A stretch of DNA of 64,000 bases. Source: Methanosarcina barkeri MS (GTDB taxonomy: Archaea; Halobacteriota; Methanosarcinia; Methanosarcinales; Methanosarcinaceae). The notes under the pieces are model-generated. The model was not told where the DNA came from. It ran no database searches and saw only the letters and a list, made by a program, of their open reading frames with translations. The stretch is taken from the NCBI RefSeq assembly GCF_000970025.1, contig NZ_CP009528.1, forward strand, positions 1,971,168 through 2,035,167. Reading direction: 5' to 3'. How positions within the stretch are numbered: the stretch's first letter is position 1; each line of letters begins with the position of its first letter. The position numbers and the translations under genes are program-made. This document shows, piece by piece, positions 2,526 to 53,849 of the stretch.

Positions 2526-4110
2526 CCTGACTTTGACAGTTACATAAAAATAAGTGCTCTCTGTTTTGTATAATTCGGTCCAATGAACATCACAAAACAG
2601 AGAGCCTTCCCTACAATTCCTAACAAGAATATATGTGTTTCTATCGGATCTATTCTTGCTGTCCAATATTTTTATGAAAAGCTTAATTTCTGTGATATTT
2701 TTAGTAATCATAAAAGTAAAGGTCTTGATCTCAATAGTTTAATCGGTTTGTTAAGCTACAAATTAACTGATAATTTTAGTATCAAAGAAGCTGGCAAATG
2801 GTTAAATCAGAAAGAGATTCTGGATATCTTAAATCTTGGAAGTTTTCACGAAAGAGTTCTTTACAGAACTCTTGAGCTTTTGGGACGTAACAAAGAGGAA
2901 ATTCTGTGTGATATTCTGGACTCTCTCTTTTCTACTTATGGTTTTGAAGAGACGAATATAAACCTGGATTGGACAAGTATAGTTCTTCACGGAACTAAAG
3001 CCAACCTTGGTAAATTCGGATATAGCAGAGATCACGGACCTGACAAGTTGCAGAGAACAGTTGGAGTTAGTGAGTTAGCTGATCCCATAAACATACCTAT
3101 CGAAGTTACAGTGAATAAAGGAAACGTTCTTGATCTTGAGCACTTTTCTGATACTTTTAACCAGGTTAAAAGTAGGCTTAAAAAAGGCTCTCTTATTGTT
3201 TTTGATAAAGGAGCTAATAACAAAGACAATCTCAACCTTATACTGGATGCTGAAATGGATTATCTCACTTCCATGAAGCTGAATAAGAGTGATGATAAAA
3301 TAATTGAGAACTTTGATCTGGAAAGAGCAGAATTGATTGATTCCAAAAAATGTATATATGGAATAAAAATCGTTAAGCTCAGTACTATTAAGTACTTTTA
3401 TTTCTCTGAATCTCTACAGAAAAAGCAGTTAGAAGTAAAAGCAAGAGCTGCTATGAGGAAATTACAGGAAGAAAAATAAGTTCAAAAGGCCATATAACAA
3501 AAAAATCTTCCCAAAAGATTCAGAGTAAATAATGAGTTGATTGAGATTAATTACTCTTTTAGAACTAAGCTCTTCGAGCTTAGTGACGAGGAAGCTATTG
3601 AACTCCTGAAAGCTTCACTGATTAATGGGAGAGAAGGATTTTTCTGTCTGAAATCAAACAGGGATTTGACACTTGAAGATGCATTGATAACATACAGAAA
3701 AAAAGATTCTATTGAGAAAATATTCCATTCATTGAAGAACGAAATAAACATTAAACCGTTGAGAGTGTGGTCGGATGATAGCATTTATGGAGCTATTATC
3801 CTTGGTTTTATCGCTCAATTATTCATATCGCTGATGCGAGATGAATTTGAAGGGATAAAACACGTATCTACAAAATTCATTAAAAAAGCTTGAAGAATTT
3901 GACACTTACAATCAAATTCAAGATAAATGGAGTAAAAAACTATATTTTTGCGAATTTTGACTGGATAAATAGCTTAATAGTAGCAAAAATGAATGTAATT
4001 ACATAGAATATATAACAAATTTTTATAAACTTAAACAAATTGTCAAGTCCATTTGGGATAAAAAGAAGGGAAATATTCAGTAACAATTAGTGGATACTGT
4101 CAAAGTCAGG
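2526..4110 (+). mobile_element. IS1634-like insertion sequence, decayed
   Basis: Perfect 15-bp terminal inverted repeats, CCTGACTTTGACAGT at 2526-2540 and its complement at 4096-4110, bound a 1,585-bp element carrying one broken transposase. I see no convincing target duplication next to the ends. About 200 bp of non-coding sequence lie between the transposase stop and the right end. Confidence 0.85.
2583..3893 (+). pseudogene. IS1634-like transposase, broken in the middle
   Basis: The first part (2583-3479, 298 residues) has the DDE-type features LDWTSIVLHG and GYSRDHGPDKLQ followed by FDKGANN, as in IS4/IS1634 transposases. The second part (3537-3893) has the region around the last catalytic acid (RKKDSIEKIFHSLK). 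Both parts lie in the same frame but are separated by stops at 3477 and 3495. Inserting one A in each of three A-runs (about 3472, 3484 and 3513) gives a continuous reading through KRPYNKKIFPKRFRVNNEL. Unless frameshifting repairs this, the transposase is inactive. The family assignment rests on motif memory. Confidence 0.8.
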
Positions 4111-4473
4111 TTTTATTTCAAAATGCTTCACCACCGAAAACTGGTACAAAAGTATCAATTAATGACCCCAGGTTGTACTTTAGAATTACAGCAGTTTCAA
4201 AAATATCTCGCACTTCGGGAAAATTCATAGATATTATCTTGCTCACTGTTTTTTTACTGGGAACACGACATCAAGTTCTTAAGAAATGTATATTATTAAT
4301 GAATTACTAATATTAATAGAATAGTTCATTGGGGTAACCAAGAAAGAAAAACTTCCATACTTAAGTCTGGAATGGAGAAAAGACAGGCGGAAAGAATGTA
4401 ATGCTTCTCTGTACTTTTGAAAGAGGTAAATAAAAGACAGTAAGTGTGAATAATACATTAGGAGTTGAAGTTT

Positions 4474-5079: not shown

Positions 5080-6346
5080 GGCAGTGTAGCGAAAGTCCTG
5101 TAAAATATGATTGACTCTATATCCATTTTCTTCATCACAAAAAATAGGATGTAGAGTCAATGATTAATGTATTCTCATTCAAAAAGATTATCTTGTCGAT
5201 CAGGAAGATGGAATTCGCCAGTTAATTACCTGGTTTTTAAATCTTGTCATGGAGAAGGAAGCCCTTCTCCAATCTTGTGCACAAAGTTATAGCGTACTGA
5301 TTCACGAAAAACCAGTAGAAACGGCTACAAATCCCGCACTCTCCTTACCAAATATGGAGAACTTGAATTGTTAAAGCCTCAGTTCCGTGAATTTCCTTTT
5401 GAAACTCAGGTATTTGAAAAATATTCCAGGGTTGAAAAGTCTATATTAGCTGCTGTAGCGGAATCTTACCTTCAAGGTGTTTCTTCCACCCGACGGGTGG
5501 AAAAGGTCATGACTGCTTTAGGATTAGAGGGAATCTCGGCCTCTTCTGTTTCCAGAATTACTAAAGACCTTGATGAGAAAGTTGAAGAATTTCTCTCAAA
5601 GCCAATAGAACATGAAATTCCTTACCTTTTTGTTGATGCGATTTATCTTAAAGTAAGAGATTGACTCCATTATGAAAATAAAGCTCTTTTTGTAGTTGCT
5701 GGAATCAGAGATGATGGTTTACGTAAGATTCTTGGAGTAAGATTGGCAGACAGTGAAGACTCTCTATTCTGGGAAGATCTATTCGAAGACCTGAAAGAAA
5801 GAGGGTTAAGAGGCGTCAAGTTAGTTGTTTCTGATGGTCATAAAGGGATACGAAAAGCATTTAGAGAATCCTTTATTGGATCAAGCTGGCAGATGTGTCA
5901 TGTTCATCTGATAAGACAAGTTCTAAAAAAGGTTCCAAAAAAGAAACAGAAAGAAGTATCAGAAAAAATAAAAGAAGCATTGGTAGACCGTCAGAAGTTA
6001 CAGGATTTGATAAGGGAACTGGAGAATATGGGATATAAAAGTGCAGCTGATACTCTTGAACATTTTCAGTATGATGTAATGAACTACATGCAGTTTCCAC
6101 AGAGTCATTGGAGAAGAATAAGGACAACAAATATGATGGAGAGAACTAACAAGGAAATAAAAAGAAGAAGCAGAGTTGTGGGAGCGTTTCCGAACCAGGA
6201 ATCAGTATTGAGACTGGTAGTCTCAATACTGATAGACATTAATGAAGACTGGATTACAGGAAACAGGTATATAGTAATGGAGCAGTAATCAAAAAAGAAG
6301 AATCAGGGGTATAGAGTAAAATTTACAGAAGATTAGGCACACTGCC
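5080..6346 (+). mobile_element. IS256-family insertion sequence, decayed
   Basis: The two ends are imperfect inverted repeats: inward from the left GGCAGTGTAGCGAAAGTCC, and from the right GGCAGTGTGCCTAATCTTC, followed by shared CTGTAAA, ACTCTAT and TTCTTC blocks. The 1,267-bp length fits IS256. The one transposase gene is broken. No target duplication is evident. Confidence 0.75.
5160..6288 (+). pseudogene. IS256-family (mutator-like) transposase, two frameshifts and one stop
   Basis: Pieces in order: ATG 5160 MINVFSFKK; then, in another frame, DYLVDQEDGIRQLITWFLN; then TDSRKTSRNGYKSRT and KYGELELLKPQFREFPFETQ; then the catalytic body with FVDAIYLKVRD, VVSDGHKG, CHVHLIRQ and RTTNMMERTNKEIKRRSR. 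The first join needs one extra A in the five-A run near 5181-5185, the second one extra base near 5293, and a TGA at 5662-5664 interrupts VRD-LHY, where a GGA glycine would fit. Each change is a single base, so the copy is a recent casualty. It is not expected to be functional. Confidence 0.85.
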
Positions 6347-9358: not shown

Positions 9359-9487
9359 TCAACTTGCACTCCTGTAAGTAAATTAAATTCATGTTTTTTC
9401 ACTAATACAATTATCGTCTTCAATTCTTGACTCTTCGTAAATTACGTTAAAGGAGCAAGTATTAGGCCTTAGGCCTGTTGTACCAAG

Positions 9488-9676
9488 CTAGTGCATCGAT
9501 TCCAAAGTATGTCCAAAATGAATTTTTTGAAAACCAGATCGAATCACTCTGTGACCGGCTGCGTTTTTCGTGTTACAGAATTCCATGTGACTTTAAAATA
9601 ATATTTATGTTAATATTTGCGTCATAAGCTGTAATTATTTTCATATTATGCACGTATTTAAGAATAGATGCACTAG
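9488..9676. repeat. MITE copy 1 (189 bp)
   Basis: Bounded by inverted ends CTAGTGCATCGATTC and GAATAGATGCACTAG. The interior matches the element at 10072-10356 at most positions (CCAAAGTATGTCCAAAATGAA, GCGTTTTTCGTGTTACAGAA, GTGACTTTAAAATAATATTT). It contains two units of a 12-bp repeat. No coding capacity is apparent. Confidence 0.7.
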
Positions 9677-9751
9677 ACTATGAAATCGTGTCGTTAAAAA
9701 TATGAATTAAATTTAAATGATTAAAAACTCATCAAGTAATAATGATAACTT

Positions 9752-9970
9752 ATGTTACAAAAGATATCAATCCAATCATTGTCAACAATATTTATAATAA
9801 TATTACTAATTATTGGCATTGCCTATTATATTTTCCCAGGCCATGACTCCCTGTTTATACTTATTGGTAGCATTGTAGGCGCTGGACCTATTCTAATCAT
9901 TGCAATCCTTGTTATGATAGGTTTAATAATTTCAATAGCCAAAATTGTTATTCGATATATTCATAAATAA
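9752..9970 (+). CDS. Small hydrophobic membrane protein
   Basis: A 72-residue protein with two predicted membrane helices (STIFIIILLIIGIAYYIF and GPILIIAILVMIGLIISIAKI) joined by a short Gly-rich loop. No conserved motif is recognised. No clear ribosome binding site precedes ATG 9752. It sits exactly between two copies of a MITE-like repeat, which suggests a duplicated or transposed segment. It could be a real small protein or an accidental hydrophobic frame. Confidence 0.45.
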   Translation: MLQKISIQSLSTIFIIILLIIGIAYYIFPGHDSLFILIGSIVGAGPILIIAILVMIGLIISIAKIVIRYIHK

Positions 9971-10071
9971 CAAACGTAACCTAAAACACTTCAAAAAGGC
10001 AGGGTAGATCTGCTTCTCAACCTGCACCTACGTTGTGTTTTACATTCAAAAATTTATAATCGTGATAGCCA

Positions 10072-10356
10072 CTAGTGCATTAATTCCAAAGTATGTCCAA
10101 AATGAATTTTTTAAAAACCAGATCGAATCACTCTGCGACCTGTTGCGTTTTTCGTGTTACAGAATTTCATGTGACTTTAAAATAATATTTGTGTCAATAT
10201 TTGTGTCAATATTTGTGTCAATATTTGTGTCAATATTTGTGTCAATATTTGTGTCAATATTTGTGTCAATATTTGTGTCAATATTTGTGTCAATATTTGC
10301 GTCATAAGCTGTAATTCTTTTCCTATTATGCATGTATTTGAGAATCGATGCACTAG
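10072..10356. repeat. MITE copy 2 (285 bp) with expanded internal repeat
   Basis: Same ends as the copy at 9488-9676 (CTAGTGCAT and ATGCACTAG) and the same interior. It is 96 bp longer, exactly eight extra units of the internal 12-bp repeat. Similar short sequences (TATTAGGCCT...TTGTACCAAG and TATTAGGTCT...TTGTGCCAAG) lie outside the outer ends of the pair. Confidence 0.72.
10184..10303. repeat. 12-bp minisatellite, ten units
   Basis: Unit AATATTTGTGTC repeated ten times in perfect register; only the last unit differs (GCGTC). The 12-bp period keeps both strands open for translation as tetrapeptide repeats, which creates spurious open frames that are not genes. Confidence 0.97.
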
Positions 10357-10422
10357 TATTAGGTCTTGTTGTGCCAAGACATTACACCGAAAACGTTATT
10401 ATGCGAGTGATAGAGTGTTTTC

Positions 10423-11147
10423 TTAAACCTTCTTTGCCCTGATTACTACAAATGAGGGAATTCTACAATGATACTCTTGCTCCGGATACAATTCTATTAA
10501 TTCTCTTGGAGGAACCGGTTCTCTAAGTGAACTCACGTACATTCCTGCTTTTTCAACTGCTTCCATGTACCTTGATAAAGGTCTATGATAATGCAGTGTC
10601 TTGCCCCAGAAATTTAATTCTTCTACCCTTTCCTCTAAATAATTTCCTATTTTTTTATATGTTTTTATGCTATTTTCGTTTTCTTCCCAATCACTTAAAA
10701 AGAAGCATGGATGTGTAATTGAGAAAACAAAAGTCCCAGGCTTTTTCAGTACCCTGGCTACTTCAAAAACAAGTAATTCAATCTCAGGAATATCCATTAG
10801 CAACATATTCGCCACAACAATGTCAAATGACTTATCTTCAAAAGTTAACATTCTGGTCAAATCCATATTATAATATTGAAGATTATCATGGACGTGCTTG
10901 CGTTTTGCTATATTTAACATAGCTTCAGAACTATCTACAGCTATAACTAACGCTCCTTTTTGTGCAAGTTCTAACGAAAAAAACCGTCACCACATCCTGC
11001 ATCAAGAACACGTTTTCCTTTTACGTTTCCTAATAATTCATTTACGGCAGCCAGGTATATCTGAGAATGAAAATTTCTTCCCCGATCGTTTTCTTCACTA
11101 TAATTTTCAGCAACAATGTCCCAGTGGTTTATACTGTCTGTTCTCAT
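10423..11147 (-). pseudogene. Class I SAM-dependent methyltransferase, one-base frameshift
   Basis: From ATG 11147 the frame reads MRTDSINHWDIVAENYSEEND...KGKRVLDAGCGDG, motif I of a SAM-binding Rossmann fold, then hits a stop in CGTTAG. In the neighbouring frame the protein continues SLELAQKGALVIAVDSSEAMLNIAKRKH (motif II) and on to motif IV (FDIVVANMLLMDIPE) and a C-terminal domain with ITHPCFF. One extra T in the seven-T run near 11000 restores a protein of about 240 residues. The substrate is unknown. The fragment from 10920 lacks the SAM-binding loop and would be inactive alone. Confidence 0.82.
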
Positions 11148-34533: not shown

Positions 34534-34804
34534 TATTTTCCGTTCAATGCTTTATGCCAGGTTACCGACTAATTACCCCAGAAACATCGAAAAAATGAAA
34601 AAGTGGATTTTATTTCGGGTTAATCTGCCCATATCTCAAGATTTAAGATTTATCCATGCGTCTTCGGTTAAGGAATCAGTTAACCATAACATGACTACTA
34701 CAATTATCTACACATCTTGATTTACTTTACAAGTTTACAGAAAAACATGATAATAGTAACATGTTTCTAACAGATAGTATCTTAACCTATGACGAATGCT
34801 TATA

Positions 34805-34932
34805 GATTAGCTAACTTATGGATTAGCTAACTTATGGATTAGCTAACTTATGGATTAGCTAACTTATGAATTAGCTAACTTATGGATTAGCTAACTTATG
34901 AATTAGCTAACTTATGAATTAGCTAACTTATG
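34805..34932. repeat. 16-bp minisatellite, eight units
   Basis: Unit GATTAGCTAACTTATG, eight copies in register; three of them begin with A in place of G. A ninth partial unit follows. It lies between convergent genes and contains TTAGCTAA, a palindrome, in each unit. Confidence 0.97.
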
Positions 34933-34951
34933 GATTAAGCTTTAAGCTGGA

Positions 34952-39923: not shown

Positions 39924-40470
39924 CTTCAGTGAATTGTGAATACGCTCAATAGTCAAAAGCATTATTTAAGTTATTCCTTATGAATAAATACAAAGTAAAT
40001 CATATATAATAACTTAATATTTTTTCCGTTAACAATCAACATTTCTTATATTTGTAATGTTTATTTTACTTATTTAGACAATGTATTACAGAGCTTTAAT
40101 GCGATTTATTATTCTTTCACTATATGCTTGCCTGAGGTTAATTAGCACTATTTCTGTTTTCATATAATATATATGATCTCCTTCAGGTTCTTAGATATAT
40201 AGTTTTCCGGGGATATAAGGAAGAAGAACTTGAAAAACACTCAAATAAGTCCCTGCACAAACCCATCTGATTTCGTTTAATTCTAAAGGTTTCAGCCAGG
40301 TCTTGACAGGAACACTACATGAGAATATAGTTATAAAATATATCAAGTCCATTAAATAAGGACTATTTTTTCAGGGTATAGCTTCTGTGTTTACACTTTT
40401 AAAAGGGCTGGTAAATCCAACCCTTATAGATTTTTAAGAAATTTGTCGGGTTTTTTAAATTGAATTTCTA
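39924..40470. other. Non-coding gap
   Basis: About 550 bp, AT-rich. TATATAAT-type boxes around 40000-40015 and 40165-40200 may include the pdxS promoter. No gene is supported. Confidence 0.4.
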
Positions 40471-40642
40471 CCCATTTAGTTCTTTTTTAATAAATTACCA
40501 TTCATCTAGTTCTTTTTTAATAAATTATTACTCATCTAGTTCTTTTTTAATAAATTACCATTCATCTAGTTTTTTTAATAAATTATTACTCATCTAGTTC
40601 TTTTTTAATAAATTATTACTCATCTAGTTCTTTTTTAATGAA
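40471..40642. repeat. 30-bp minisatellite, about six units
   Basis: Units like TTCATCTAGTTCTTTTTTAA plus TAAATTATTA, each 30 bp (one is 28 bp). It lies just after the 3' end of the phosphatase gene on the minus strand and reaches to within a few bases of its stop codon. Confidence 0.95.
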
Positions 40643-40645
40643 CTT

Positions 40646-41713
40646 TTACTCCATTCCGTGCCCTGGCTGCTTGAGAGCTCCTTTTCGGTTGCTTAAGAGT
40701 TCCTTTTCAGTTCTATACAGGTTGAGCTTTGTGCAGACAACTACGGACACCCAGATTGTAGATGCGGGTATGAAAGCTTTCAAGAACTCGATGAATTTGA
40801 GACTGAAATAGGCTACGGTTTCGATATTATCGAACCCTAAATCAAGAATAAAGCTGGAGATTCCGAATAGCAGAAGCGCAATAAATATCCTCAAAACTCT
40901 CTGCTCGACACTTCCCGCATCATCAGGGAGTCCTCTGCGTATAATCAAAACGTATGCCGCATTCGTGCCAAGGAAAAAACCCGCTGCTTCTGCACTTATC
41001 ATAGATGAAGTTATAAGAACAAGAGGGATAACAAACAGGACGAAGTACAAAATAAGGTTCTTGCTCTTGAGTGCAAGTTCGAAATTATCTTTCTTGAAAA
41101 AATCATCTTTCAGGGGGCTTTTGAGAAAGAGGACAAAAGCAGTAAGGAAAAATAAACCTATAATAGCTCCTCCCAGAATATCCCCCAGAAAATGCCTTCC
41201 CAGGTACATTCTCGATAAGGCTACAAGCAATACCATAAAAGGAGCCATCATTTTGATTTTCCGGCTGTTGAAAATCGTGGAACTTCCTCCCCAGAGTGCG
41301 GTCGTAATTGCAACATGCCCTGAAGGGAAACCAAAAGGCGAAGGGGAAAGTGCTTCTTGAAGGCGGAAGGTTTCAAGAACTTTTTTATCGGGAAGTTCGA
41401 ACACATCATCAGGTCCACTTCCGTTGAAAGGGGATGTACTTTTCACTCCATATTCAAGGTTAAGTACTCTGTTGTCTACATAATCCGGCCTCGGAAAGGC
41501 AATTATTGTCTTAATGATTTCGGTAATCAGCCCTGTCCAGATTAAGAGCTGGAACAGAAGAAAACCTTTCCGGAAATTAACCCCGAAAGTTACGATAACT
41601 ACTATGGCAACCAAAAAAGCCGATGATCCCATTGAAGTTATCAGAATCATGAGGGATGTAAGCCAATCGTTTCCAAGGGATTGCAGATAGAGTATAGGTT
41701 CAGTCTGGAACAA
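40646..41713 (-). CDS. PAP2-superfamily membrane phosphatase
   Basis: A 355-residue membrane protein with eight or more predicted helices. The three PAP2 catalytic motifs are present: KTIIAFPRPDY (about residues 68-78), FGFPSGHVAIT (about 126-136) and SRMYLGRHFLGDILGG (about 167-182). It probably dephosphorylates a lipid pyrophosphate such as a polyprenyl carrier at the outer face of the membrane. A C-terminal 120-residue extension with further helices is longer than simple PAP2 enzymes. It has no operon partner. Confidence 0.88.
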   Translation of the reverse strand: MFQTEPILYLQSLGNDWLTSLMILITSMGSSAFLVAIVVIVTFGVNFRKGFLLFQLLIWTGLITEIIKTIIAFPRPDYVDNRVLNLEYGVKSTSPFNGSGPDDVFELPDKKVLETFRLQEALSPSPFGFPSGHVAITTALWGGSSTIFNSRKIKMMAPFMVLLVALSRMYLGRHFLGDILGGAIIGLFFLTAFVLFLKSPLKDDFFKKDNFELALKSKNLILYFVLFVIPLVLITSSMISAEAAGFFLGTNAAYVLIIRRGLPDDAGSVEQRVLRIFIALLLFGISSFILDLGFDNIETVAYFSLKFIEFLKAFIPASTIWVSVVVCTKLNLYRTEKELLSNRKGALKQPGHGME

Positions 41714-51405: not shown

Positions 51406-53849
51406 TTATTTGTTTTCAGAATATATGCCAGGCCTTGTATTTGTTGTCACTTTTATATAATTTGTTTTTGTTATCGTATTGCCACCTGCAGCATTGCTTA
51501 CTGTAAGAGTAACCTTATATGATCCTCCCTGCAAATACTGATGTTCTGGATTCTGTTCCCTTGAAATTGTTCCGTCTCCAAAACTCCATTTCCATTTAGC
51601 CGGGATTCCTGTGCTTGTGTCAGTAAAAGTAACCTTTAATGGTGCTTTGCCTGATGTGACGTTACTGGTGAAGCTTGCAACAGGTTTTGTTATCACTTTT
51701 ATATAATTTGTTTTTGTTACCGTGTTACTGCCTGCAGCATTCTTTACTTTTAAGCTAACATTATATACCCCTGCATTTGAATACTTATGAGTCGGATTCT
51801 GGTGGAATGACTTTGATCCGTCTCCAAAGTCCCATTTCCATGCAGCAGGTGTTCCTGTGCTTGTGTCAGTAAATTTAACCTTTAATGGTGCTTTTCCTGA
51901 TGTAGCACTGCTGGTGAAGTTTGCAACCGGTTTTGTTATCACATTTATATATTCTGTTTTTGTTACCGTGTTACGACCTATATCATTCTTCACTGTTAAG
52001 TTAACAGTATATATTCCTGCCTTTGAATACTTATGACTCGGATTCTGATGGAATGACTTTGATCCGTCTCCAAAGTTCCAGAACCAGGAAGTTGGGGAGC
52101 CTGTGCTTGTATCAGTAAATTTAACCTTTAATGGTGCTTTTCCTGATGTAGCACTGCTGGTGAAGTTTGCAACAGGTACAGTATCTGTTACGTTATCATC
52201 TGTTACATGTAGATGTATAGTGCAAGAATCACTACCATTTGTACCAATTGCATTAATTTTGCCAGTATAATTCCCGGAAGTTGCACTTTCAGGTATATTT
52301 ATTGTAACTAGGATAGTTTCAGGTACTCCAGAAGAAACATTGACTGCTGCTGGATTTACTTTGATATTACTGGTATCAATAATATCACCGTTTTCTGATT
52401 GGAGTGAAGTCGGTGTTATTGCAACCGATGTTAAGGCTTGGGATGTACTGACAGTAATGTTCTTGGTAATCTTTTCCCCAGTCTTTCCCTCTATGGATAA
52501 GTTATCCGGCAAAAGCAAGATTGAATTTGTTCCCTGGATTATTTTAAAGGAACTGTCTTCGATCCTGTTGAACTGAGATCCATCAGATAAACTTCCTGTT
52601 GCTGTAGCATCAACCGTATAATCTCCCTTTAAAGAAGTATTATCGAAAAAGTTTGCATAAATTCCATCCTTTGCGCCACCGTCTCCATGGCTACCATCAT
52701 CATACAGTGTAAGGTGGTTAATACTGGAATCTGGAAGAGTGATATTGGATTTAACATCAGCAGTTGTGATCTTAGTTTCTCCATTAGAAATACCTGAAGT
52801 TATCTTTACGCTTTCACCCTGGATATACTGATCTTTATCCGTAGAAAGGGACATGGATAATGTTGATTCAGCACGGACAGTAACAGAAACATCCTCTCCT
52901 CCTGTTGGCATATCGGTCGCCGTTAATTCCATAGTCCATTCTCCAAGTTCTGGATTTGAAACTTTGTAGATCTTATAAGTGGAGCTGGCTATGTACTCAA
53001 TATCAGGATCTGACTCTGCCTCAGAAGGATCTACTATCGACCCATCAGGCTTGTGCAGTACGAGGTCTACATTACTTCCGGGCCAAAAAACACTTGCGAT
53101 TGCTTTTTTCATTGTACTGTCTGTTTTGTAAGCTATAAATGTATGGTCACCCTTAACCATATTAAAAGTGAGATCTTTAATAGGTGTCAAGCCAGTAACT
53201 TCTCCAACAATGTCATTATATATATTCTGTAACTGGTTCTCTGTAGGAGAATAATAATACTTGCCCCCTGTTTTCGTAGCGATGTCGCCTAGCAATCCTT
53301 CATCAGCATTAGAACCAAGACCAACAGTGTAAACTTTTATTTTATTATCTGTAATATCGGGAATCACTTTGTTTGGATGCTCCCCACTGTTTTGCAGTCC
53401 ATCCGAAAGCAAAACAATTGCCTGCGGAGTACTTGAATCCCCATAGGCTAGTAAATCGTTTAAACCATATCTCAGTCCACTTCCAATTGCAGTATTACCT
53501 GAGGCTGAAATTTTTCCTATCTTATCTTTAATGCTGCTCTTATTGTCATTAGTAAGAGTAGTAAGGTGATGATCATAACGTGCAGATGTACTGAACGATA
53601 CGACTCCTGCCATGTCATCAGGCTCCATGTAGTCAACAAAAAGACTTGCTGCGTTTTTAGCATTAGAAATAGGTGTACCATACATACTACCCGAACGGTC
53701 TATAACGAGCATCACATGAGCGGCCGAATCCGTAAACACCGGATGACTCAGTGTGAGACCGTCATTATCAGGACGTCGTTGTAAATCCCAATCACCAGGC
53801 TTGGTGTATGTCCTTATGAATATACTTTTTTTGTCATGTTGTGTGTCAC
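51406..53849 (-). pseudogene. 3' part of the split gene: VWA and three PKD domains
   Basis: About 814 codons from SDTQHDKKSIF to the stop. The frame also runs upstream into the IS end, which adds a spurious MKVWKKQYARSQLRNSYP start. VWA: HVMLVIDRSGSM, GNTAIGSGLRYG, AIVLLSDGLQ. The three PKD domains start PVANFTSSATSGKAPLKVKF, again PVANFTSS, and PVASFTSNV, each with FGDG. The first two are nearly the same and resemble the PKD of the beta-helix gene at 32517. It may still be expressed from the IS, but without a signal peptide it could not be exported. Confidence 0.88.

Follow-up and report, generated by a model that had tools for sequence, protein, structure and literature searches.

The unit described here, 869 bp in length, lies within a 64-kb window (the whole stretch of DNA that was analysed). 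It is composed of a first MITE copy, a cargo segment carrying a small gene and a second MITE copy in the same orientation, with CTAG at both outer ends (Table 1).

Table 1. Features of the unit and its borders, in window positions
Feature	Positions	Strand	Basis
Imperfect host-repeat copy left of the unit (TATTAGG...CCAAG)	9460..9487	+	
CTAG, left border of the 869-bp unit	9488..9491	.	
MITE copy 1, 189 bp, CTAG to CTAG	9488..9676	+	sequence and direct-repeat comparison
Two degenerate 12-bp units in copy 1	9600..9623	+	
Cargo, 395 bp between the copies	9677..10071	.	DNA search
72-aa gene, hydrophobic product	9752..9970	+	ORF list, protein searches
MITE copy 2, 285 bp, orientation as copy 1	10072..10356	+	sequence and direct-repeat comparison
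Ten-unit array of 12 bp in copy 2: nine identical AATATTTGTGTC, last AATATTTGCGTC	10184..10303	+	
CTAG, right border of the 869-bp unit	10353..10356	.	
Near-perfect host-repeat copy right of the unit	10357..10378	+	

Both copies start with CTAGTGCAT and finish with ATGCACTAG. The lengths given to them by the original prediction were borne out to the base by the direct repeats that pair them (9488–9624 with 10072–10208, 93%; 9600–9676 with 10280–10356, 91%), and the 96-bp difference in length is indeed 8 × 12 bp, with two units in copy 1 and ten in copy 2. The inverted ends are imperfect, 32–33 bp long (78% and 73%). The outer (left) end of copy 1, CTAGTGCATCGATTCC, is intact, and its inner (right) end, GAATAGATGCACTAG, carries one change; the outer (right) end of copy 2, GAATCGATGCACTAG, is also intact, and its inner (left) end, CTAGTGCATTAATTC, carries two. 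Neither copy contains a transposase ORF, and both are shorter than ~500 bp, within the size of MITEs. Of 177 positions, copy 1 differs from the family member at locus L059 at 7 and from copy 2 at 12, so copies 1 and 2 are not recent duplicates of each other.

The gene between the copies had been predicted to encode a small membrane protein, and the sequence agrees: the ORF encodes a hydrophobic product of 72 residues, has homologues in the genus and, by its sequence, probably specifies a small membrane protein. Near full-length profile matches were obtained in 5 of the 29 other Methanosarcina genomes compared (G006, G008, G010, G012 and G021); another 11 matches, all weak, cover 31 residues inside longer frames. 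Searches of Pfam and NCBIfam with the protein gave no match, and comparison of the protein and the locus DNA with plasmids returned nothing. Judged from these searches, the protein family is patchily held, and it is not known at this locus elsewhere. No pair of MITE ends was found at the five homologue loci (a stretch of ~3.2 kb each). At the DNA level, the cargo has no close relative in the 29 genomes (best other match 32 bp, E = 3.7e-5), and its borders are therefore those of the MITEs.

The MITE family, its target site and related insertion sequences

The genome that contains the window (G000; 4.57 Mb, two contigs) was compared with the 29 others, one genome per species. The plasmid of Methanosarcina barkeri 227 covers 77% of the initial 12 kb of the smaller G000 contig at 100% identity, which points to M. 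barkeri or a very close species. With copy 1 as query, matches at E ≤ 0.001 were found in 14 of the 30 genomes, the match pieces numbering 49 in G029, 47 in G004, 27 in G002, 25 in G011 and 17 in G000. We sampled the family as 74 stretches around matches, which hold part of the matches listed. Among the matches listed, the usual element is ~260 bp long; ~80 bp of its interior is missing from copies 1 and 2, from L059 and L061 in the same genome and from L068 in G004. The identification as a MITE made in the original prediction is upheld by the inverted ends, the many dispersed copies, the CTAG target and the presence in relatives of IS630-family elements with the same ends. The sequences flanking the array are related to others outside the locus, as members of a dispersed family.

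A two-unit pattern, allowing up to 3 mismatches, matched the genome of the window at 14 places, all inside family members, and the reversed control gave 0 matches; the pattern is therefore not a product of chance. In a wider contig collection, from which records very near G000 may be absent, it yielded four isolated matches, all in unrelated bacteria, which we take as chance. Exact matches to a 22-base end pattern were not found in viral contigs. Besides the family, G000 contains CTAG-flanked miniature elements with related ends, of ~108 bp and ~172 bp (L080, L083, L084, L085 and L088), which brings the size classes in G000 to at least three. At L059, no alignment runs across the element, so no empty site was obtained, and the right flank is repeated DNA. 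A segment of ~0.5 kb in the window (3586–4112, minus strand) is 94% like the L059 flank and recurs at several places, both in G000 and in relatives.

Among the matches listed, CTAG lies on both sides of 34 of the 55 copies with both ends located. The flanking 4-mers are identical in 37 of the 55, including CTAC/CTAC twice and GTAG/GTAG once, and differ in 18. Where elements are neighbours, a single CTAG is common to both. L061 in G000 and L068 in G004 occupy one locus (a single 1,216-bp alignment, 84.8%), and here G000 has an extra element of ~50 bp at a site where G004 has just one CTAG. For ISY100, a member of the IS630 family, duplication of TA has been reported (PMC2170065). Agreement within the CTAC and GTAG pairs suggests that four bases, rather than TA, may be duplicated by the Methanosarcina elements.

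Matches to Pfam DDE_3, present in 25 of the 30 genomes, led to insertion sequences of ~1.25 kb with the ends CTAGTGC[A/T]TCGATTC (up to 3 mismatches). G002, G007 and G009 have copies with both ends (L150, L161, L151 and L163); the same insertion sequence occurs in G015 and G017 with its genes broken. Its transposase belongs to the IS630 family (128.6 bits to NF033545, cut-off 100), and CTAGTGCATCGATTCC is common to the MITE and the insertion sequence at L161. By its ends, which are those of IS630-family insertion sequences in other Methanosarcina species, the family is classed as an IS630-type MITE. RUP elements of pneumococcus, a bacterium, are also described as a short IS630-related MITE family.

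The distribution of the two partners is uneven. The cognate transposase gave 0 matches at E ≤ 1e-20 in G000 and in G029, the latter having many MITEs without the insertion sequence. Conversely, G007 and G009 have the insertion sequence without a MITE match at E ≤ 0.001, and G002 is the only MITE-rich genome with both. As co-occurrence is partial, the link between insertion sequence and MITE rests more on shared ends and target. Four other DDE_3 matches are present in G000, three of them with a stop, and MITE-like ends were found at none. A row of two short MITEs and one IS630-family element of ~1,248 bp is present in G009 (L151:627–2084), the insertion sequence beside a short MITE, with CTAG shared by neighbours. 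In G004, the left part of a MITE abuts a decayed fragment of an IS630-type transposase on the opposite strand (L187; G004:C2:198500–199800).

The insertion site in relatives and the origin of the unit

When a 2,551-bp query spanning the locus was compared with the other genomes, relatives aligned to the left and right of the unit but never across it. The 869 bp are absent from all nine aligned loci (G001, G002, G003, G004, G010, G024, G025, G027 and G029); G006, which gave a right-side match only, lies outside these nine. The G004 alignment stops on the left at query base 893 and picks up again on the right at base 1754, 20 bp further on in G004, where the site reads uninterrupted as ...CCAAG-CTAG-TATTAGG.... 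It falls among three copies of a 25-bp host repeat (3.2 copies at L095:2369–2446), with CTAG targets formed at both junctions between them. In the window, ...CCAAG precedes the first CTAG and TATTAGG... follows the last, with one repeat copy on each side. The two sides lie close together in G029, G003 and G027 with no CTAG junction, G029 having one 25-bp repeat copy. The adjacent GNAT gene is likewise unaligned in G001, G002, G010, G024 and G025, which makes these five less informative on the junction.

Two further observations concern genes of the window. To the right of the unit, a methyltransferase gene (10423–11147, minus strand) is apparently split into ORFs 10423–10920 and 10971–11147, the former matching Methyltransf_11 from profile position 33 on. 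On the plus strand, the ORF at 5743–6285 matches the C-terminal half (positions 163–336 of 338) of profile NF033543, which represents IS256-family transposases.

Because a relative has the empty site, we infer a single insertion event. Two copies of a MITE bound a cargo, the whole appears to be one insertion, and direct repeats stand at its outer borders, as in a composite transposon. Copy 1, the gene and copy 2 appear to have been inserted jointly, which goes beyond what was originally claimed for this locus and is of more interest than the array. The best reading of the sequence is that the unit is probably a composite transposon bounded by MITEs, similar to TIME-COMPs, in an archaeon. The chances are about even for a more specific version, in which IS630-type MITEs move a gene as a unit between CTAG sites, the inner ends decaying so that only the outer pair works. 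Under the composite reading, copies 1 and 2, which are non-autonomous MITEs with IS630-family ends lying at CTAG sites, with CTAG on either side, would have come to bound the 395-bp piece that carries the gene. The outermost ends would then have been used by a transposase in trans, the left one of copy 1 and the right one of copy 2, and the 869-bp unit would have moved, in this lineage, into the CTAG between two 25-bp host repeats.

Two independent MITE insertions beside a resident cargo, or replacement by the cargo of host repeat lying between two MITEs, would yield a similar arrangement. Side-by-side insertion is feasible, since G004 has two CTAG junctions here; it predicts host repeat between the copies, whereas 395 bp of unrelated DNA ending exactly at the MITEs is found instead, and the cargo is absent from this place in relatives. 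We consider such a history improbable.

More serious, although still unlikely, is homologous recombination, in which a circle carrying a second MITE and the cargo, set free at another locus by recombination, integrated into a single resident MITE at the CTAG, the unit then not being a transposon. Integration of this kind would give the same product, and the copies are direct and 93% and 91% alike, as such an exchange needs; that the cognate transposase was not found in G000 (E ≤ 1e-20) also speaks for it. However, a single MITE occupies this place in none of the nine aligned relatives, and no other locus with a MITE and cargo was found in the 30 genomes. The state of the ends is a further, weak hint against recombination, under which there is no reason to expect the outer ends to be intact and the inner ones changed. 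Among the matches listed, left ends are intact in 27 of 55 family copies and right ends in 17 of 55, and from these frequencies the pattern seen here would arise by chance with a probability of ~0.05. It is likewise a weak hint in favour of the composite transposon, as is the closeness of the copies: if the 11 copies in G000 were independent, two would lie within 584 bp of each other with a chance of ~0.014 (55 pairs × 2 × 584 / 4.53 Mb).

Against the composite transposon stand the lack of a cognate transposase match in G000, the partial co-occurrence of MITE and insertion sequence, the evidence that the two copies are not recent duplicates, and the searches for a donor, a second copy of the unit or a second composite, none of which was found (the unit is present in only one copy among the 30 genomes). 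A MITE pair in G002 (contig C1, ~126 and 130 kb) was considered as a possible second composite, without support: the DNA between its two MITEs matches genes that lie apart in other genomes (2.39 and 2.70 Mb in G000), and no empty site was recovered.

In 1991, Tenzen and Ohtsubo reportedly described an IS630 composite transposon inserting at the TA in CTAG. It resembles the Methanosarcina unit in its IS630-type ends, its composite form and its preference for CTAG; the difference is that IS630 itself is associated with it, whereas both ends of the Methanosarcina unit are MITEs. A close parallel is provided by TIME-COMPs, described as cargo bounded by Tn3-derived miniature elements in Pseudomonas and Enterobacteriaceae (PMC4133298; PMC13367494). 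There too, two miniature elements lacking a transposase, direct or inverted, lie at the ends of a cargo; a target duplication surrounds the whole TIME-COMP (PMC4133298), and the Methanosarcina unit has CTAG at both outer borders. TIME-COMPs belong to the Tn3 family, generate 5-bp duplications and were shown to move in a trap plasmid (PMC4133298), whereas the unit described here has IS630-type ends at CTAG, resides in an archaeon and is known from its sequence. A review of prokaryotic MITEs names, in its available part, Sulfolobus, Halobacterium, Haloquadratum and others as archaeal carriers, and Methanosarcina is not named there (PMC10969869). We found no report of an archaeal composite of this kind in the titles and abstract starts of the open-access papers that literature searches listed. 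MITE-bounded composites are reported gene movers in bacteria and, if the composite reading is correct, the present case would extend this to archaea. The small, defined unit is suited to testing whether an IS630-type transposase moves genes in trans.

The 12-bp array

In copy 2, Tandem Repeats Finder reports positions 10184–10304 with period 12 and unit AATATTTGTGTC; with tandem units that differ little (10.1 copies, 99% match), the array is a minisatellite. The original prediction assigned the same unit to both copies. Nine exact AATATTTGTGTC units are present in copy 2, whereas neither unit of copy 1 is an exact AATATTTGTGTC, the two being AATATTTATGTT and AATATTTGCGTC.

To count units across the family, we used the spacing between two conserved anchors in 71 distinct matches among those listed. 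One unit is present in 59 of the 71 (including the second of two L230 matches), two units in four (copy 1, L059, L060 and L068), three in one (L061) and ten in one (copy 2); the remaining six are interrupted or unreadable (L063, L066, L187, L197, L215 and one L230 match). Among these matches, one unit is thus the norm; a form with two units arose inside the family, and far expansion is seen in copy 2 only. The proposal that the array expanded inside the element is supported, the two-unit form standing at four places and ten units being confined to copy 2 among the matches listed. At the place shared by L061 and L068, the unit number is 3 in G000 and 2 in G004, and hence differs between species at one locus.

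The copy 2 array has truly expanded, probably in recent times, but such growth is ordinary. Its recency, also part of the original prediction, is weakly supported by the nine identical units: outside the array, copy 2 differs from L059 at 10 of 177 positions, and nine identical units against this background fit a recent event. Separately from the movement of the unit, copy 2 would have grown from about two units, the presumed earlier state of its subfamily, to ten. Replication slippage is the simplest mechanism and a plausible one, with unequal recombination as an alternative.

BrickBuilt of Porphyromonas gingivalis is a MITE with a 23-nt minisatellite (PMC4596501). It shares with copy 2 a tandem array inside a MITE and a varying unit number, which in BrickBuilt varies between loci and strains. 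The array is a usual component of BrickBuilt, whereas one unit is the norm in the Methanosarcina family; sequence, unit length and domain of life also differ. The Porphyromonas MITE is reported to hold promoter elements (PMC4596501), and the ten units of copy 2 are in phase, nine of them identical, as might be expected if the array were a promoter, a protein site or an RNA selected for its length. We regard such a function as very improbable: the single-stranded DNA fold of copy 2 is no better than that of shuffled sequences (z +0.49, 134 of 200 as good), Rfam gave no match at E ≤ 1, and arrays are common in this window. The fold of copy 1 is better than that of shuffles (z −3.21). Taken alone, the 12-bp array has little significance beyond possible use as a strain marker.

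Tandem arrays are frequent in the 64-kb window, for which Tandem Repeats Finder returned 30 rows, some for one array. Further examples are 34799–34937 (16 bp × 8.7), 40469–40651 (30 bp × 6.2) and 51440–52177 (246 bp × 3.0).
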